Positions 19,744 to 26,022 of a DNA stretch of 64,000 nt are shown here, piece by piece. The position numbers were made by a program, and so were the translations under genes. Positions within the stretch are counted from its first letter, which is position 1; each line of letters opens with the position of its first letter. Source of the DNA: Pseudomonadota bacterium. Its GTDB lineage: Bacteria > Pseudomonadota > Alphaproteobacteria > Micavibrionales > CSBR16-224. Location of the stretch: positions 430,001-494,000 of the forward strand of contig CP053449.1 of NCBI GenBank assembly GCA_013285465.1, read 5' to 3'. The notes under the pieces were generated by a model, which had not been told where the DNA came from, did not search any database, and saw only the letters and a program-made list of their open reading frames with translations.

Positions 19744-20196
19744 TTGGAAAACCGCGGAATTATAATGAGTTACACGGAGCCTCCGACATTGGAGGATCTT
19801 GAAGCACTTTCAAAATCCATTGTTGACGCACTGCCGGACGGGCTTGGAAAATATATCGGCAAGCTGAAGATCATTGTCGAAGATTTCCCCGATGCCTATA
19901 TCGAGCAGGAGCTCGAACTGGATACGCCCTACGACATCCTCGGCTATTACGAAAGCGCAGGCCCTGCCGCTATCGGCCATCTTGCCGCCCATAAAGACCG
20001 CCGTGATACGCTGCGCCTGTTCCGCCGTCCCATTCTGGATTTATGGTGTGAAACGGGCGAAGACCTGACCACAGTCGTCAATCGCGTGATCTTGCAGGAA
20101 ATCGGCAACCATTTCGGCTTTACTGATGACGAGGTGGAAATGTATGAGGAAGATATGGAGAAGAATGATCTTCTCAATTTCGACCTGACGGCCTAA
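19744..20196 (+). CDS. zincin-like metallopeptidase family protein with degenerate metal motif
   Basis: A 150-residue protein of the small 'metallopeptidase family' (COG3824/DUF1025-like). The family framework is clear: PTLEDLEAL at the start, IVEDFPD, TPYDILGYYE, LRLFRRPILDLWCE, and the C-terminal helix followed by HFGFTDDEVEMYE. Active members read HEIGHHFG at the motif, but here it is QEIGNHFG (Q118, E119, N122, H123). Both zinc-binding histidines of HExxH are therefore replaced, and the protein is probably not a peptidase. The TTG at 19744 is chosen as start because a perfect AGGAGG (19730-19735) lies 8 bases before it. The ATG at 19765 matches relatives' N-terminus and is the alternative. 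Confidence 0.78.
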   Translation: MENRGIIMSYTEPPTLEDLEALSKSIVDALPDGLGKYIGKLKIIVEDFPDAYIEQELELDTPYDILGYYESAGPAAIGHLAAHKDRRDTLRLFRRPILDLWCETGEDLTTVVNRVILQEIGNHFGFTDDEVEMYEEDMEKNDLLNFDLTA

Positions 20197-20210: not shown

Positions 20211-20915
20211 TTACCAGAACCTGTCGTAATGCACTCTTTCTTCGGGAACGCCAAGCGTTTCGAGGATGCCGAGCGTGTGCAGCATCATGCCTTTGGGGCC
20301 GGCAAGGTAAATATCGGTATTTTTCCAGTCATGTGCCGCTTGTTCAATATGTTCGCCGACCAGCCCGGCGGCAAAGTCCTGATGCGGGCGCAGCAATACG
20401 GGCGTGTAGAGAAAATGCGGATTGGCGTTATCCAGTCCGCGGAACAGATCATGCAGATACAGCTCATCCGCCGTATTACATCCCCAGTAAAGATGTACGG
20501 GGCGTGCGGGGTTATGCGCCTGTGCCGTGGTGATGATCGAATGTATGGGGGCAATACCGACACCGCCGGCAATGGCAATGAGCGGGGTATCCGCGTCTTT
20601 TTCCAGACGGCTTTTCCCATGCGGCATATCTATAGTCAGGCTGTCGCCTTGTTTTAGCTGTGCGAAAGCCTCTGTCGTAGGGCTTGCAGGGGCGGTTTTG
20701 ATGTGAAAGCTGATCAGCGCATCACCTTCGGCGCTGGCGATGGAATAGGGACGCGGCTTTTCCATGGCCTCTGTTTGCAGATAAGCAAATTGTCCGGCGG
20801 CAAAACCGGCAGGCGCGTCGGGACGGCACATCAGGATAATGGTTTCCTCTGTGGCTTTGATAATGTCTTCAACAATGGCTGTCATTGTCTGCGCGCCGGA
20901 GGCGGGATTTTTCAT
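20211..20915 (-). CDS. FAD/NAD(P)-binding oxidoreductase (ferredoxin-NADP reductase superfamily)
   Basis: A 234-residue flavin reductase module. The first half is the FAD-binding barrel with RPYSIASAE (R-x-Y-S motif). The second half is the nucleotide-binding domain with IAGGVGIAPIHSII, HLYWGCNTADELYL and the C-terminal IYLAGPKGMM. There is no [2Fe-2S] cysteine cluster, so electrons must pass to a separate acceptor or to a free substrate. The physiological partner is unknown. A shorter start at 20885 (MTAIVEDIIKATEET) fits relatives equally well. It is the last gene after the M3 peptidase pair, with a 23-base gap. Confidence 0.82.
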   Translation of the reverse strand: MKNPASGAQTMTAIVEDIIKATEETIILMCRPDAPAGFAAGQFAYLQTEAMEKPRPYSIASAEGDALISFHIKTAPASPTTEAFAQLKQGDSLTIDMPHGKSRLEKDADTPLIAIAGGVGIAPIHSIITTAQAHNPARPVHLYWGCNTADELYLHDLFRGLDNANPHFLYTPVLLRPHQDFAAGLVGEHIEQAAHDWKNTDIYLAGPKGMMLHTLGILETLGVPEERVHYDRFW

Positions 20916-20938: not shown

Positions 20939-22933
20939 TTATGGTCTAAAGCGGAAGCTTTTCTTATTGTTATCGCCGCCGCGGGCGGAATTGTCGAGAT
21001 TTTTTTTATCTGCCAATCCCGGAACAGTCGTTCCCAGAATATCCGCAATGGAAGGTGCGGAGGTCGGAATGGCGGAGGGGGTGCCGCTTTCAAGAATATT
21101 CAGATAATCCTCAATCAGTTCCAGCCCTTTTGTCCAGAATTCCTGCGATGTATGGTCAAGGCCGAGCGGTTGCAGCAGTTCTTTTAGGTCGGCGCTCATA
21201 CCCGCTTTCAGCAGATTGGTGTAATCTTCGATAAATTGCGGCTTGTCATCGGTTTCCTGATACAGTTTGTAAAGGCTGTTGGCCATGCCTTGCGCAAAGC
21301 TGTAGGAAAAGACATAGAAAGACGGCGGTTCGAAGAAATGCGGCACCATGCACCAGGAATAACGCTGGTAGTCGTCGATTTCGACGGACGGGCCGTAATA
21401 TTCCTGCAAGACATCCACCCAGATATCGCTGATTTCTTCCGCATCAGGCGCGCCGGTTTGTGCGCTTTCATAGACGCGTTTTTCGAAATCGAAATAAGCC
21501 ATTTGCAGCATACCGCTTTCCAGCAGCCCCTCGATCTGGTGCTGTAGCAGTTTTCTTTCGACATCGGGGTCTTTGGTTTTGCCGCGCAGATAATCGAACA
21601 TCAGCATCTCGGAAAAGACGCTGGCGATTTCCGCCATGGTTTCCGGCGTGTCGGATAAAAGCCCGCCCTGGGCTTCTTCCGCCAGCACCATATGAATGCC
21701 GTGTCCCAGCTCATGCGCCAGTACGACAAGGCTGATAATATCTTCATTGAAATTGGTCAGGATATAAGGGTGTCCATCCGGTCCCGTCGGCAGGGTGAAA
21801 TCACTTGCCGCTTTGCCTTTATGCGGCGCGGCATCAATATAGCCGCCCTCGAAATATTCTTTGGCGATATTTGCGAATTTCGGCGAAAATTTGCGGAAGG
21901 CGGAAAGGATTTCCGGCTCGGCCTGCTCCCACGGATATTCCAGATCTTCCAGTTCCGTCTGACCCGGCACAGGGTCGGAGAGGCGGCTGGATGGCAGTAC
22001 ATCCACACCATGCTGGTCAGCCAGCCATTTGTAATAGCGGTGCGACAGCGAGATATAGGATTTTTTCACGGTCTCGCGCAGCATATCGGCGGTATCCGCA
22101 TCCAGTTTGTTACGGTCAAGAAAGTTCTGGTCATGGCGGTCATGCCCCAGCCATTCGCGGTCGATATCCTGTGTTTTAATCACGGTGCTGAGGACGGTGG
22201 CAAAGCGTTTGCTATGCTGTTTCATCAGATCGGCCTGCGCCTGACGGGTTTCCTCAGGCGTGTCTTTTTCCACCGCGGCGACCTTTTCTTCCAGCGCGAT
22301 GACATGTTTCTGATAATAGGCGGACAGCCCTTCGGTATGGATGGAATCAAAAACACCGCTCAGCGTCTGGATGTCCGCAGATAATTCACGGGTGGGCGTG
22401 CCGCCGCGCAGCTGCGCCAGCCAGGGCGCGTATTTTGACATGGCGGGGGCGCCGAGTTTGAACAGCAGTTTTTCCTCGCTCATATCCGCCAGCTGGTCAA
22501 GAAAGTCTTCAAGCTGCTGGTCAATACCGCCGACCCAGCTTTGCAGCGGTTTGATCTTTTCAAAATTCGCGGCATTGTCGGAAATCAGCAATTCGCCATA
22601 GGCATAGATTTTCATTTTGCGGTTATTGATGACCTCATAAGCGGCAAGGGCTTCGGCCAGTTCTGCGCCGGGCATGTCATTAACATCAACACCTTCATAA
22701 GCATCTAGAAATTCAGCCAGTTTTTCTTCGACAAAAGCCTGATCATTTTTCAAAGCGCGGGAGCGCAGGCCGGGATAAAGATTTTTTAAATTCCAGCGGC
22801 CGTTTTTACCATTGGCGCCGCGCCCGGCATCATTCTCTGCTGTTTTTTTGGTGTTCTCCGGTGCGTCATTGCCCTCCGCGCTACGGCGTTTTGCAAAAAT
22901 ACGGGACAGGCGGTCATGGCGTTGTGGTTTCAT
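20939..22933 (-). CDS. M3 family oligoendopeptidase (PepF-like), active copy
   Basis: A 664-residue cytoplasmic zinc peptidase that cuts short peptides. The M3 motif HELGHGIH places zinc ligands at His407 and His411 with catalytic Glu408. The downstream TPETMAEIAS gives the third ligand near Glu435. The late HFFEPPSFYVFSYSFAQGMA holds the His/Tyr residues used for substrate binding. The start at 22933 forms an ATGA overlap with the stop of the upstream paralogue and has AGGAGG 9 bases before it; longer in-frame starts are not supported. Residues 1-45 are a basic, low-complexity head. It is coupled to a catalytically dead paralogue, see the next gene. Confidence 0.92.
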   Translation of the reverse strand: MKPQRHDRLSRIFAKRRSAEGNDAPENTKKTAENDAGRGANGKNGRWNLKNLYPGLRSRALKNDQAFVEEKLAEFLDAYEGVDVNDMPGAELAEALAAYEVINNRKMKIYAYGELLISDNAANFEKIKPLQSWVGGIDQQLEDFLDQLADMSEEKLLFKLGAPAMSKYAPWLAQLRGGTPTRELSADIQTLSGVFDSIHTEGLSAYYQKHVIALEEKVAAVEKDTPEETRQAQADLMKQHSKRFATVLSTVIKTQDIDREWLGHDRHDQNFLDRNKLDADTADMLRETVKKSYISLSHRYYKWLADQHGVDVLPSSRLSDPVPGQTELEDLEYPWEQAEPEILSAFRKFSPKFANIAKEYFEGGYIDAAPHKGKAASDFTLPTGPDGHPYILTNFNEDIISLVVLAHELGHGIHMVLAEEAQGGLLSDTPETMAEIASVFSEMLMFDYLRGKTKDPDVERKLLQHQIEGLLESGMLQMAYFDFEKRVYESAQTGAPDAEEISDIWVDVLQEYYGPSVEIDDYQRYSWCMVPHFFEPPSFYVFSYSFAQGMANSLYKLYQETDDKPQFIEDYTNLLKAGMSADLKELLQPLGLDHTSQEFWTKGLELIEDYLNILESGTPSAIPTSAPSIADILGTTVPGLADKKNLDNSARGGDNNKKSFRFRP

Positions 22934-24741
22934 GCGGACGGCCCTCCTTTTTTCTTTTGTGCAGCGGGCTTTTGTACCGATTTGTCTGCCGCCAACTGCT
23001 TGTCCAGCGCGGTCAATTGCTCCAGACGCTTCTCCAGCAGGCTGACACCGTCCTGCCATGTTTGCTCATCCGTGATATCAATTCCCAGCGTTTTCAGAAG
23101 CGGTTTCCCCTGTTTGGAGGAACCTGCGGCCAGAAAATCGGCGAATTTTTTATTCTCCGCCGCCGGATCGCTGCTGTCTTTGCGGTCATGCATCAGCTTG
23201 GCGGCAAGCGTCAAACCGAACATATCCTGCAAAGCGTCAGCTGTATCGGACAGCATATAGGGCGCTTCGACCCACAGCATATCCAGACCCGGTGCATCAT
23301 AATCGACGGCAGGACCAAAAGCATTTTGCAGCGAGGCTTTCCAAAGTTTTTTCGCTTCATCAACGGAGACTGTACCCTGTTTTTCCGATAAATCGTTTAA
23401 GGCGCGGTCACATGCGGTGACGGCGGCGGAAAGCGAGAGCGTTAAAAGGCTGCGCTCAATCTGATAGGCAATCAGGTCGCGTTTTTCAGCGGGATCATTT
23501 GCGGCATCGATCAGCGCATCCAGCGCGGCGAATTCCGCCGCATGTCCGGCCAGCGTTTCAAAACCGGGCAGCGGTTTTGCCGTCAGCGGCGTATTGTTTT
23601 TGGCGGCATGATCTCGCTGGATATCGCGTCCAATGCCGTGTGCCGTCAGCGCCATACGTTCCAGCGTTGCGGGTGTACCGTCAAGGCACAGATAGGACGG
23701 GCGGTCATCGGGCATGATAAACAGCTTCATCGGGCGCAGCGGTGTTCCGCTGCCGCTGTTTTGTCCATCCAGAACTTTCAGTGTGCCGTCATTTTTCGGG
23801 AAGAGCTTTTCCAGCGCGGGCAGGGCGGTTTTCTCCCACGCTTCTTCCTTGGTTTCCGGTACGGGAATATGCAGCAGGTCGGCGGGGTGCAGGCGCGGTA
23901 CACCCGCTTGCTGCGCCTTGCGTTTGTAAAATTTTGCGGCAATTTGCGGCAGCTTTCCGGTGAGGGCCTTCATCATTTTATGCGGCACATCCTCGGGAGT
24001 CTGGCTTTGCGCGGTAAAAGCCTTTTCCGGCGTATCAAAGCCGCGGATGGCGGCGGCAGCACCAGTGCTGCGCATACGGTTGCTGAGAAGTTGCATCAGC
24101 GTTTCGACATCTTCTTCCGTCTCGGCAGCAAAATTTGCAAAAATTTTGCTGCGTTTCTCTGCATCACTTTCTTCACGCAAAGCCTGCAAAAGCGGTGCAG
24201 CATTATCTTCCGTAACGGGGGCGGCAAGTTTGGCCCAGATATCTTTCAAATCAGGGTGCTTATGCGCCTGATCATGCAGATAGCATTCGACATCTTCTTC
24301 ATAAACCGTACCGCTATAGGAACGGTGCAGGCGCAGCCAGGGCGTATAGGCGGCCAGTTTCGGCTCTTCCGCCATGCGGTCAAGAAGTTCGAATTCCGGA
24401 AAGGCGGCAATCTCGCTTTTGAAAAACAGCGTGTCGCGTGCGGCGTCATTCAGTTTTTTTTGTGTTTTGCGCGCCCAGTCATCGTTTTTCTCGACGGTGA
24501 TATGGCGCAGATCAACATAGGAATGCAGGGCTCCGGCCTGTGACAAAATGGATTCATACTGCTGAAAAGCGGTTAGAAGGCCCTGCCCGTCAAGATCGGC
24601 AATGCCTTCCGCATAGTTGTCGCGGAAGGCTTTGACGTCTTTTTTCAGTTGCGACATAGCAGCGCGGAATTCACCGGAGGTTTTTCCGGGGAAAATATCC
24701 TTCAGGCTCTGCAAATGGGAGGCAGGGCGCTCGGTTTTCAT
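22930..24741 (-). CDS. M3 oligoendopeptidase-like pseudoenzyme (active site lost)
   Basis: A 603-residue relative of the following active M3 peptidase. The fold is recognisable along its whole length: LKDIFPG at the start, YTPWLRLHR matching YAPWLAQLR, YKRKAQQAGVPRL matching YKWLADQHGVDVL, the strand before the active helix, and a similar C-terminal LGIDITDEQTW. At the active helix HELGHGIH is replaced by HGIGRDIQ (His368 kept, Glu to Gly369, second His to Arg372), and the FSYSFAQ substrate segment is lost. The gene is otherwise intact with no frameshift, so it is maintained. It probably acts as a structural or regulatory partner of the active copy, to which it is coupled by a 4-base overlap. 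The tail is K/A-rich. Confidence 0.83.
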   Translation of the reverse strand: MKTERPASHLQSLKDIFPGKTSGEFRAAMSQLKKDVKAFRDNYAEGIADLDGQGLLTAFQQYESILSQAGALHSYVDLRHITVEKNDDWARKTQKKLNDAARDTLFFKSEIAAFPEFELLDRMAEEPKLAAYTPWLRLHRSYSGTVYEEDVECYLHDQAHKHPDLKDIWAKLAAPVTEDNAAPLLQALREESDAEKRSKIFANFAAETEEDVETLMQLLSNRMRSTGAAAAIRGFDTPEKAFTAQSQTPEDVPHKMMKALTGKLPQIAAKFYKRKAQQAGVPRLHPADLLHIPVPETKEEAWEKTALPALEKLFPKNDGTLKVLDGQNSGSGTPLRPMKLFIMPDDRPSYLCLDGTPATLERMALTAHGIGRDIQRDHAAKNNTPLTAKPLPGFETLAGHAAEFAALDALIDAANDPAEKRDLIAYQIERSLLTLSLSAAVTACDRALNDLSEKQGTVSVDEAKKLWKASLQNAFGPAVDYDAPGLDMLWVEAPYMLSDTADALQDMFGLTLAAKLMHDRKDSSDPAAENKKFADFLAAGSSKQGKPLLKTLGIDITDEQTWQDGVSLLEKRLEQLTALDKQLAADKSVQKPAAQKKKGGPSA

Positions 24742-24876
24742 GGCGTACCGTCTTTCCGCATATCTTCCTGCAAATGGTTTAAGGTCACAGGAAGCCTAGC
24801 ATAAATCCGGATACAGGGAAAACAAAACTTCTGTGCAAGCTTTATGTGAATAGGGCTTGCGACAGGTTTTATGCGC

Positions 24877-26022
24877 TCATGCGCTCATACTCTCATTCGT
24901 TGCGGCATATTTGATATCAATATCTTCAATACTGGTATCTGCCGGGCCGCGCTTTTTATAAAGCTGGCCGTTGCGCGTTTCCAGAAATTCATCAAAGGGA
25001 ATATCTTCCTGACGGATAAATCCGCGGCCGGCAAGCTTGCCGGTATCCACCATTTCAATAACCGAACAGACCGAGGCTGCCGTTGTCCATGAAATAGCGC
25101 GCCATTGCCGTCCGTTAATGACTTTGGGCAGATAGCCGTTGATGAATTCTTCACGCAGCAGCTTGTCATGCTTGCTCCAGCCTTCGACCGAGGCATGGAC
25201 ATAAACGATGTCTTCGGAAACCGGCGGTTTTGCATGGGACAGGACTTTAGCGGTTTCCTGCAGGTTTTCACGCATGAACAGCTCATGCAGCAGGAAATTC
25301 ATCATCTTGGCATGACCGGGGTAACGGATGCTTTTGTAATCCAGATTTTCAACACGGTCGATATAAGTATCGCACATTGTGCCAAGCCCGCCCGATGTGG
25401 TGAAGGCTTCCAGCTCCTGCCCGTTAATGAAGATTTTTTCCAGCCATTCCAGCGGTGATACCAGTTTTTTCTGGCCGCGTTCTATGACTTCACAATCATT
25501 CAGATATTCGTTGATAACACCTTCGGGTGACCAGTTAAAGGCATAGCCCAGATGCCCTGTCGGGTGCTGGGGCAAGGCGCCGACGCGCAGTTTCATATGG
25601 CGGATTTTTTTGAAATCGCGCGCCAGATAGGCACCGACAATCCCGATGAAGCCGGGGGCAAGACCGCATTGCGGTGCCAGCACGGTTTTGGCATCTTTTG
25701 CCAGTTCCAGAATATATTGCGTGGTCGGGACATCTTCCGTCAGGTCAAAATAATGCAGACCTTCTTCAACCGCCAGACGGGCGATATCTTTATTCAGGAA
25801 AAACGGCAGGCAGGAAACAACAGCATCATTGTCTTTCATCAGCGCCTGCAACTTTGCGGGATTGGAAACATCCAGCTCTTTTGCGTCAAAGGGAAAGTCT
25901 TCGGACAGCGCGGCATCTGCGCCCGTGACCTTATAACCGGTTTCATGCAAAAGTGTTGCAACCAGTACACCGACACGCCCCAGCCCCAATACCAGGATAT
26001 TTTTGATTTTTTCCTGTGCCAT
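24877..26022 (-). CDS. saccharopine dehydrogenase family protein
   Basis: A 381-residue NAD(P)-dependent oxidoreductase of the saccharopine dehydrogenase-like family. The Rossmann nucleotide motif is at the N-terminus (VLGLGRVGVLVATLL, GxGxxG). A characteristic substrate domain follows (CGLAPGFIGIVGAYLA, TTSGGLGTMCDTY, KSIRYPGHAKMMNFLL). The family includes lysine and carboxyspermidine dehydrogenases and related enzymes; which reaction this one performs cannot be settled from the sequence. GGAAGGGAAAG precedes the ATG. It is divergent from the rhomboid gene with 76 bases between, so it is likely a single unit. Confidence 0.82.
   Translation of the reverse strand: MAQEKIKNILVLGLGRVGVLVATLLHETGYKVTGADAALSEDFPFDAKELDVSNPAKLQALMKDNDAVVSCLPFFLNKDIARLAVEEGLHYFDLTEDVPTTQYILELAKDAKTVLAPQCGLAPGFIGIVGAYLARDFKKIRHMKLRVGALPQHPTGHLGYAFNWSPEGVINEYLNDCEVIERGQKKLVSPLEWLEKIFINGQELEAFTTSGGLGTMCDTYIDRVENLDYKSIRYPGHAKMMNFLLHELFMRENLQETAKVLSHAKPPVSEDIVYVHASVEGWSKHDKLLREEFINGYLPKVINGRQWRAISWTTAASVCSVIEMVDTGKLAGRGFIRQEDIPFDEFLETRNGQLYKKRGPADTSIEDIDIKYAATNESMSA

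Follow-up and report, generated by a model that had tools for sequence, protein, structure and literature searches.

The window analysed here is a continuous stretch of 64,000 nucleotides from an alphaproteobacterial genome. Its reverse strand carries two adjacent genes of the M3 peptidase family, here called A (upstream) and B (downstream). Their features and those of their immediate neighbours are as follows, from upstream to downstream in window positions.

24877..26022 (-), upstream neighbour, saccharopine dehydrogenase-like protein, separated from gene A by 135 nt
22930..24741 (-), gene A, encoding P0002, an M3B homologue of 603 aa that is catalytically dead, with its frame intact
23617..23640 (-), pseudo-active site of P0002, HGIGRDIQ, residues 368-375, with H368 kept, Glu replaced by G369 and His by R372
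23557..23559 (-), E395 of P0002, the retained third zinc-ligand position
23224..23259 (-), residues 495-506 of P0002, with Y495, D502 and D506 at the positions of the substrate/transition-state His, Tyr and Tyr of active M3 enzymes
22943..22948 (-), Shine-Dalgarno sequence AGGAGG of gene B, lying 9 nt ahead of its ATG and within the 3' end of gene A
22930..22933 (-), ATGA in which the stop of A and the start of B overlap
20939..22933 (-), gene B, M3B oligoendopeptidase P0001, 664 aa, complete active site
21692..21715 (-), HELGHGIH of P0001, residues 407-414
21629-21631 (-), third zinc ligand of P0001, E435
21302..21340 (-), intact substrate segment of P0001, H532...Y540...Y544
20211..20915 (-), downstream neighbour, FAD/NAD oxidoreductase (ferredoxin reductase-like), separated from gene B by 23 nt

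The two proteins align with each other at 23% identity over 595 columns (BLASTP, E 4e-19). The initial annotation had described two M3 genes overlapping by ATGA, with the upstream product aligning along its full length and its frame open over 603 codons, and this description was confirmed. Its further proposal that the twins are produced in equal amounts did not carry over, because gene B also has a strong Shine-Dalgarno sequence of its own and equality could only be assumed. A promoter scan found nothing exceeding chance. Just upstream, a seven-codon mini-ORF (MRKDGTP; 24738-24761, (-)) ends in an ATGA overlap of its own, at the start of gene A. It is identical, except for its flanks, in G001, a genome from another species of the genus, with an indel of approximately 110 nt just upstream, and it could be a leader peptide or a chance occurrence. 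Elsewhere in the same genome there is a separate M3 peptidase gene (G000:C1:2355807-2357270; L001, L002) that has strong PF01432 matches and one 754-codon open frame.

P0001 has every residue of the expected active-site set (H407, E408, H411, E435, H532, Y540 and Y544), which comprises the HExxH motif, the downstream Glu ligand and the substrate-contacting His and Tyr residues. The annotation of this protein as carrying HELGHGIH and a full set of ligands is correct. Against Pfam PF01432 it scored 119 bits, well over the cut-off of 27. Against the NCBIfam model TIGR02290 (M3_fam_3) the match was full length (1-585 of 587) at 358.8 bits, below the curated cut-off of 561.7. Judged by this score, P0001 is a divergent relative.

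P0002 matches TIGR02290 with an E-value of 6e-37 and PDB entry 2QR4 with an E-value of 9e-10 across residues 44-579. These values, together with the match to P0001, are far beyond chance and indicate that P0002 is an M3 homologue from end to end. Its score against PF01432 was 19.7 bits, below the cut-off of 27, so automatic annotation could miss it. We read its active-site columns in an alignment with 60-odd homologues, in which the catalytic Glu, both zinc His, the third-ligand Glu and the two Tyr residues are invariant in the other proteins. P0002 does not have the HExxH form, reading HGIGR at residues 368-372, and keeps two of the three zinc ligands (H368 and E395). The loss of the catalytic Glu and the second zinc His that had been read from HGIGRDIQ thus stands. 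By contrast, the FSYSFAQ segment that had been reported as lacking is aligned in P0002 and substituted (ADALQDMFGL), not missing.

Structure prediction was carried out for both proteins. With four sequences as input, the AlphaFold model of P0002 is of low confidence (pLDDT 61, pTM 0.54) and that of P0001 is poor (pLDDT 48, pTM 0.29). When the low-confidence P0002 model was used in a Foldseek search, the first nine matches were all M3B enzymes with TM-scores of about 0.45-0.5.

The only orthologous pair found lies in G001 (contig SBHI01000117.1; MAG Alphaproteobacteria bacterium M3014), and a search for related loci across genome contigs returned this record alone. Identity between the two species is 93% for P0002 and 96% for P0001. 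For P0002, dN was 0.034 and dS 0.755, giving a dN/dS of 0.045 (Nei-Gojobori), compared with 0.035 for P0001 and 0.005-0.118 for seven neighbour genes by the same method; these ratios come from a single species pair and are neither lineage- nor site-specific rates. Third positions account for 196 of the 247 nucleotide differences in gene A, and there are no stops or frameshifts. In neutral simulations with 247 random substitutions, an average of 6.9 in-frame stops arose and the frame stayed open in 1 of 2000 draws. Only four of the 42 replaced residues of P0002 fall in residues 400-603. From the low dN/dS, the excess of third-position changes, the lack of stops and the few replacements in residues 400-603, we conclude that P0002 is under ordinary purifying selection and is a maintained pseudopeptidase. 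Relaxed selection on the pseudoenzyme, which the initial annotation had named as an outcome that would count against its proposal, is contradicted by a ratio within the range of the neighbours. The two adjacent homologous genes, one of them catalytically dead and selectively kept, form a dead/active peptidase pair.

On the opposite strand, at 19744-20196 (+), the window encodes a Zincin_1 (PF06262) protein in which HExxHxxG reads QEIGNHFG, so that both His of HExxH are lost. It is 99% identical in G001 with a dN/dS of 0.005. The motif in relatives reads QEIGHHFG, YEIGHHFG or HEIGHHFG, and it is degenerate in several genera of the order. This protein is perhaps a second pseudopeptidase that has been kept.

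We searched 142 genomes of the order for the two genes. Tandem A-B genes, both encoding HELGH, occur in ten genomes of one other family (f3; genera g6, g17 and g21). The same ATGA overlap is found in eight of the nine contiguous tandems, with a gap of 3 nt in the ninth (G029); in the tenth genome (G047) the two genes are separated by a contig break. P0001 groups with the B proteins with 100% support and scores 566 bits against the B profile versus 395 against A. It is, on this evidence, the orthologue of B. In several relatives in f3 (L039, L041, L043, L094 and L097), another active M3 gene, designated type C, lies upstream of the tandem, and some have a conserved gene of approximately 304 codons between type C and A-B, resulting in clusters of three M3 peptidases.

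The placement of P0002 is less direct. Its profile scores were 232-240 bits for A and 126-184 for the other profiles; where A gave 232, other alphaproteobacterial M3 proteins gave 181, B 128 and C 126. A one-residue insertion (GPAVDYD-A-PG) is common to P0002 and all ten A proteins and occurs in no other homologue in that alignment. In the tree, P0002 falls beside A with weak support (62/25), which can be attributed to its very long branch, separating it from its relatives by about 5-7 changes per column. Grouping P0002 with the whole clade of B and P0001 was not rejected in the smaller set (p-AU 0.305). The preference for the A profile, the common insertion and the operon order with its overlap make it likely, short of proof, that P0002 is orthologous to A. 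It seems highly improbable that P0002 is instead a lineage-specific duplicate of P0001 and not a descendant of the old A gene. A recent copy of P0001 is not rejected in a larger, quick tree (p-AU 0.28), but it is rejected in the careful tree (p-AU 0.007), P0002 prefers the A profile over B by about 100 bits and has the A insertion, and the position and overlap of the gene match those of A. The pairing with its four-base overlap is old, as shown by the same ATGA in the f3 tandems.

The surroundings of the pair differ between the two families. Downstream of the f3 pair comes an ABC1/UbiB-like gene, joined in several genomes by transhydrogenase-like genes (named by eye from their sequences). In the window genus the pair sits between the saccharopine dehydrogenase-like and FAD/NAD oxidoreductase genes. 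G003 (genus g2) also has these flanking genes, there with other neighbours and no pair. The pair would therefore have moved here as a unit or been lost elsewhere. Frequent loss in relatives had also been named as counting against a functional pseudoenzyme, and here the outcome is mixed. G005, from the window's own family, has an orthologue of B alone in the f3-like ancestral setting with no A found, and both genes are absent from genera g2 and g3. A has thus been lost outright at least once, and several of the genomes compared have neither gene. In G002, the third species of the genus, no pair was seen; as contigs C207 and C287 end at either side of the site, this absence is no evidence of loss. 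As G005 shows, B does occur with no A beside it, and so it has no universal need of A.

The dead state has been seen in two species of a single genus, those of the window genome and G001. The HExxH form is kept in all other M3 homologues with a readable motif, roughly 90 proteins that include those of alphaproteobacteria with two or three copies; this sample was taken from the best matches within a single class and does not amount to a census of M3. One frame without HExxH (G307_L080) was excluded as probably a wrongly picked frame.

Both proteins have the fold of, and end-to-end homology with, M3B oligoendopeptidase F (PepF; TIGR02290; PDB 2QR4 and 3CE2). Compared with this family, P0001 has the whole catalytic apparatus, whereas P0002 has lost its catalytic Glu, one of the zinc His and the His/Tyr residues that contact substrate. 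PepF has been described as an active peptidase, for instance in pheromone degradation (PMC9173638). Among the parallels in arrangement, the best known are the two-gene M16B peptidases, namely MPP alpha/beta, Sphingomonas SPH2681/SPH2682 and Thermus TTHA1264/TTHA1265, which have an active and an inactive subunit (PMC11266112, PMC12731061). In these cases the heterodimer is required for activity and the bacterial subunits come from neighbouring genes (PMC11266112, PMC12731061). The likeness lies in homologous active and dead metallopeptidases that are encoded, in the bacterial cases, by neighbours on the chromosome. M16B proteins differ in having the unrelated M16 fold, an HxxEH motif and two halves that close a chamber, whereas in M3 a single chain contains the complete site. 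Tma108 (M1), Goe (M13), FtsHi (M41) and the ADAM pseudopeptidases (M12) are likewise intact, dead and functional, but they belong to other families and are eukaryotic. A 2024 review of metallopseudopeptidases lists cases in M1, M12, M13, M14, M15, M16, M24 and M41 (PMC11266112). An M3 pseudopeptidase appears neither in that review nor in the open-access papers searched, in agreement with the initial annotation, which knew of no such description; an earlier one may exist. A pseudopeptidase beside an active paralogue is a known kind of arrangement, and what appears new here is the M3 case and the ancestral tandem of two active enzymes.

The idea that best accommodates these results is that P0002 most likely does a non-cutting job, probably as a partner of P0001. 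In the ancestor of part of the order, one operon would have encoded first A and then B, both active M3B oligoendopeptidases, with translation coupled through ATGA. In the window genus, replacement of the Glu, of one zinc His and of the substrate His/Tyr set would have cost A its catalysis, while selection kept its fold, its reading frame and its coupling to B. P0002 may then bind P0001, forming a heterodimer or a larger hetero-complex in which it is the non-catalytic subunit, and might there shape the substrate access, stability or activity of P0001, much as inactive subunits do in the two-gene M16B peptidases. The selection on amino acids, the retention next to an active enzyme and the age of the coupling speak for a role of P0002 at the protein level, beside P0001. 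Since the active site of an M3 enzyme is complete within one chain, regulation, stabilisation or gating would be the likelier task of a dead subunit. We put the probability of the hetero-complex, on which this account turns, at approximately 0.5. The initial annotation had suggested a heterodimer in which the pseudoenzyme regulates or presents peptides; the maintenance of P0002 and the age of the pairing lend that suggestion partial support.

The next best reading, though an unlikely one, is that P0002 works alone as a peptide-binding protein (a sink, carrier or sensor) through its old substrate channel, with a link to P0001 that is functional, not physical. The full-length M3 fold kept by sequence, the top Foldseek matches to M3B oligoendopeptidases and the retained first zinc His and E395 are consistent with this, and known pseudopeptidases such as Tma108 and Ebp1 still bind peptides (PMC11266112). 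However, the substrate-contacting His/Tyr set is gone too, which disfavours an unchanged substrate site, and the P0002 model is of low confidence (pLDDT 61). Still less probable is that P0002 now serves as an unrelated enzyme or moonlighting protein and stands before P0001 as a leftover of history. Such a role would fit the very long branch of P0002, consistent with a change of function, and the new locus of the pair in the window genus, but the ATGA overlap with B survived both the move and the divergence. The least credible reading, which the lost catalytic residues and the lack of A in G005 might suggest, is that P0002 is a recently inactivated copy becoming a pseudogene, which is contradicted by the dN/dS of 0.045 over 603 codons (within the range of the neighbours) and the average of 6.9 stops in neutral simulations, or only a translated leader for P0001, which would not constrain amino acids and would precede a gene with its own Shine-Dalgarno sequence.

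M3 oligopeptidases are regarded as self-sufficient enzymes. Returning to P0002 as a subunit of a P0001 complex, this could, as a more tentative proposal than the account above, be the first heteromeric M3 peptidase, one in which an active pair had already formed a complex before one subunit died and was kept as an obligatory regulatory or structural subunit. The scale is modest, with two known species. What the locus provides is a comparable before and after, with relatives in which both members are active, one genus in which the dead member is kept and one relative with B alone. The reason for keeping the pseudoenzyme is therefore directly testable with existing genes.
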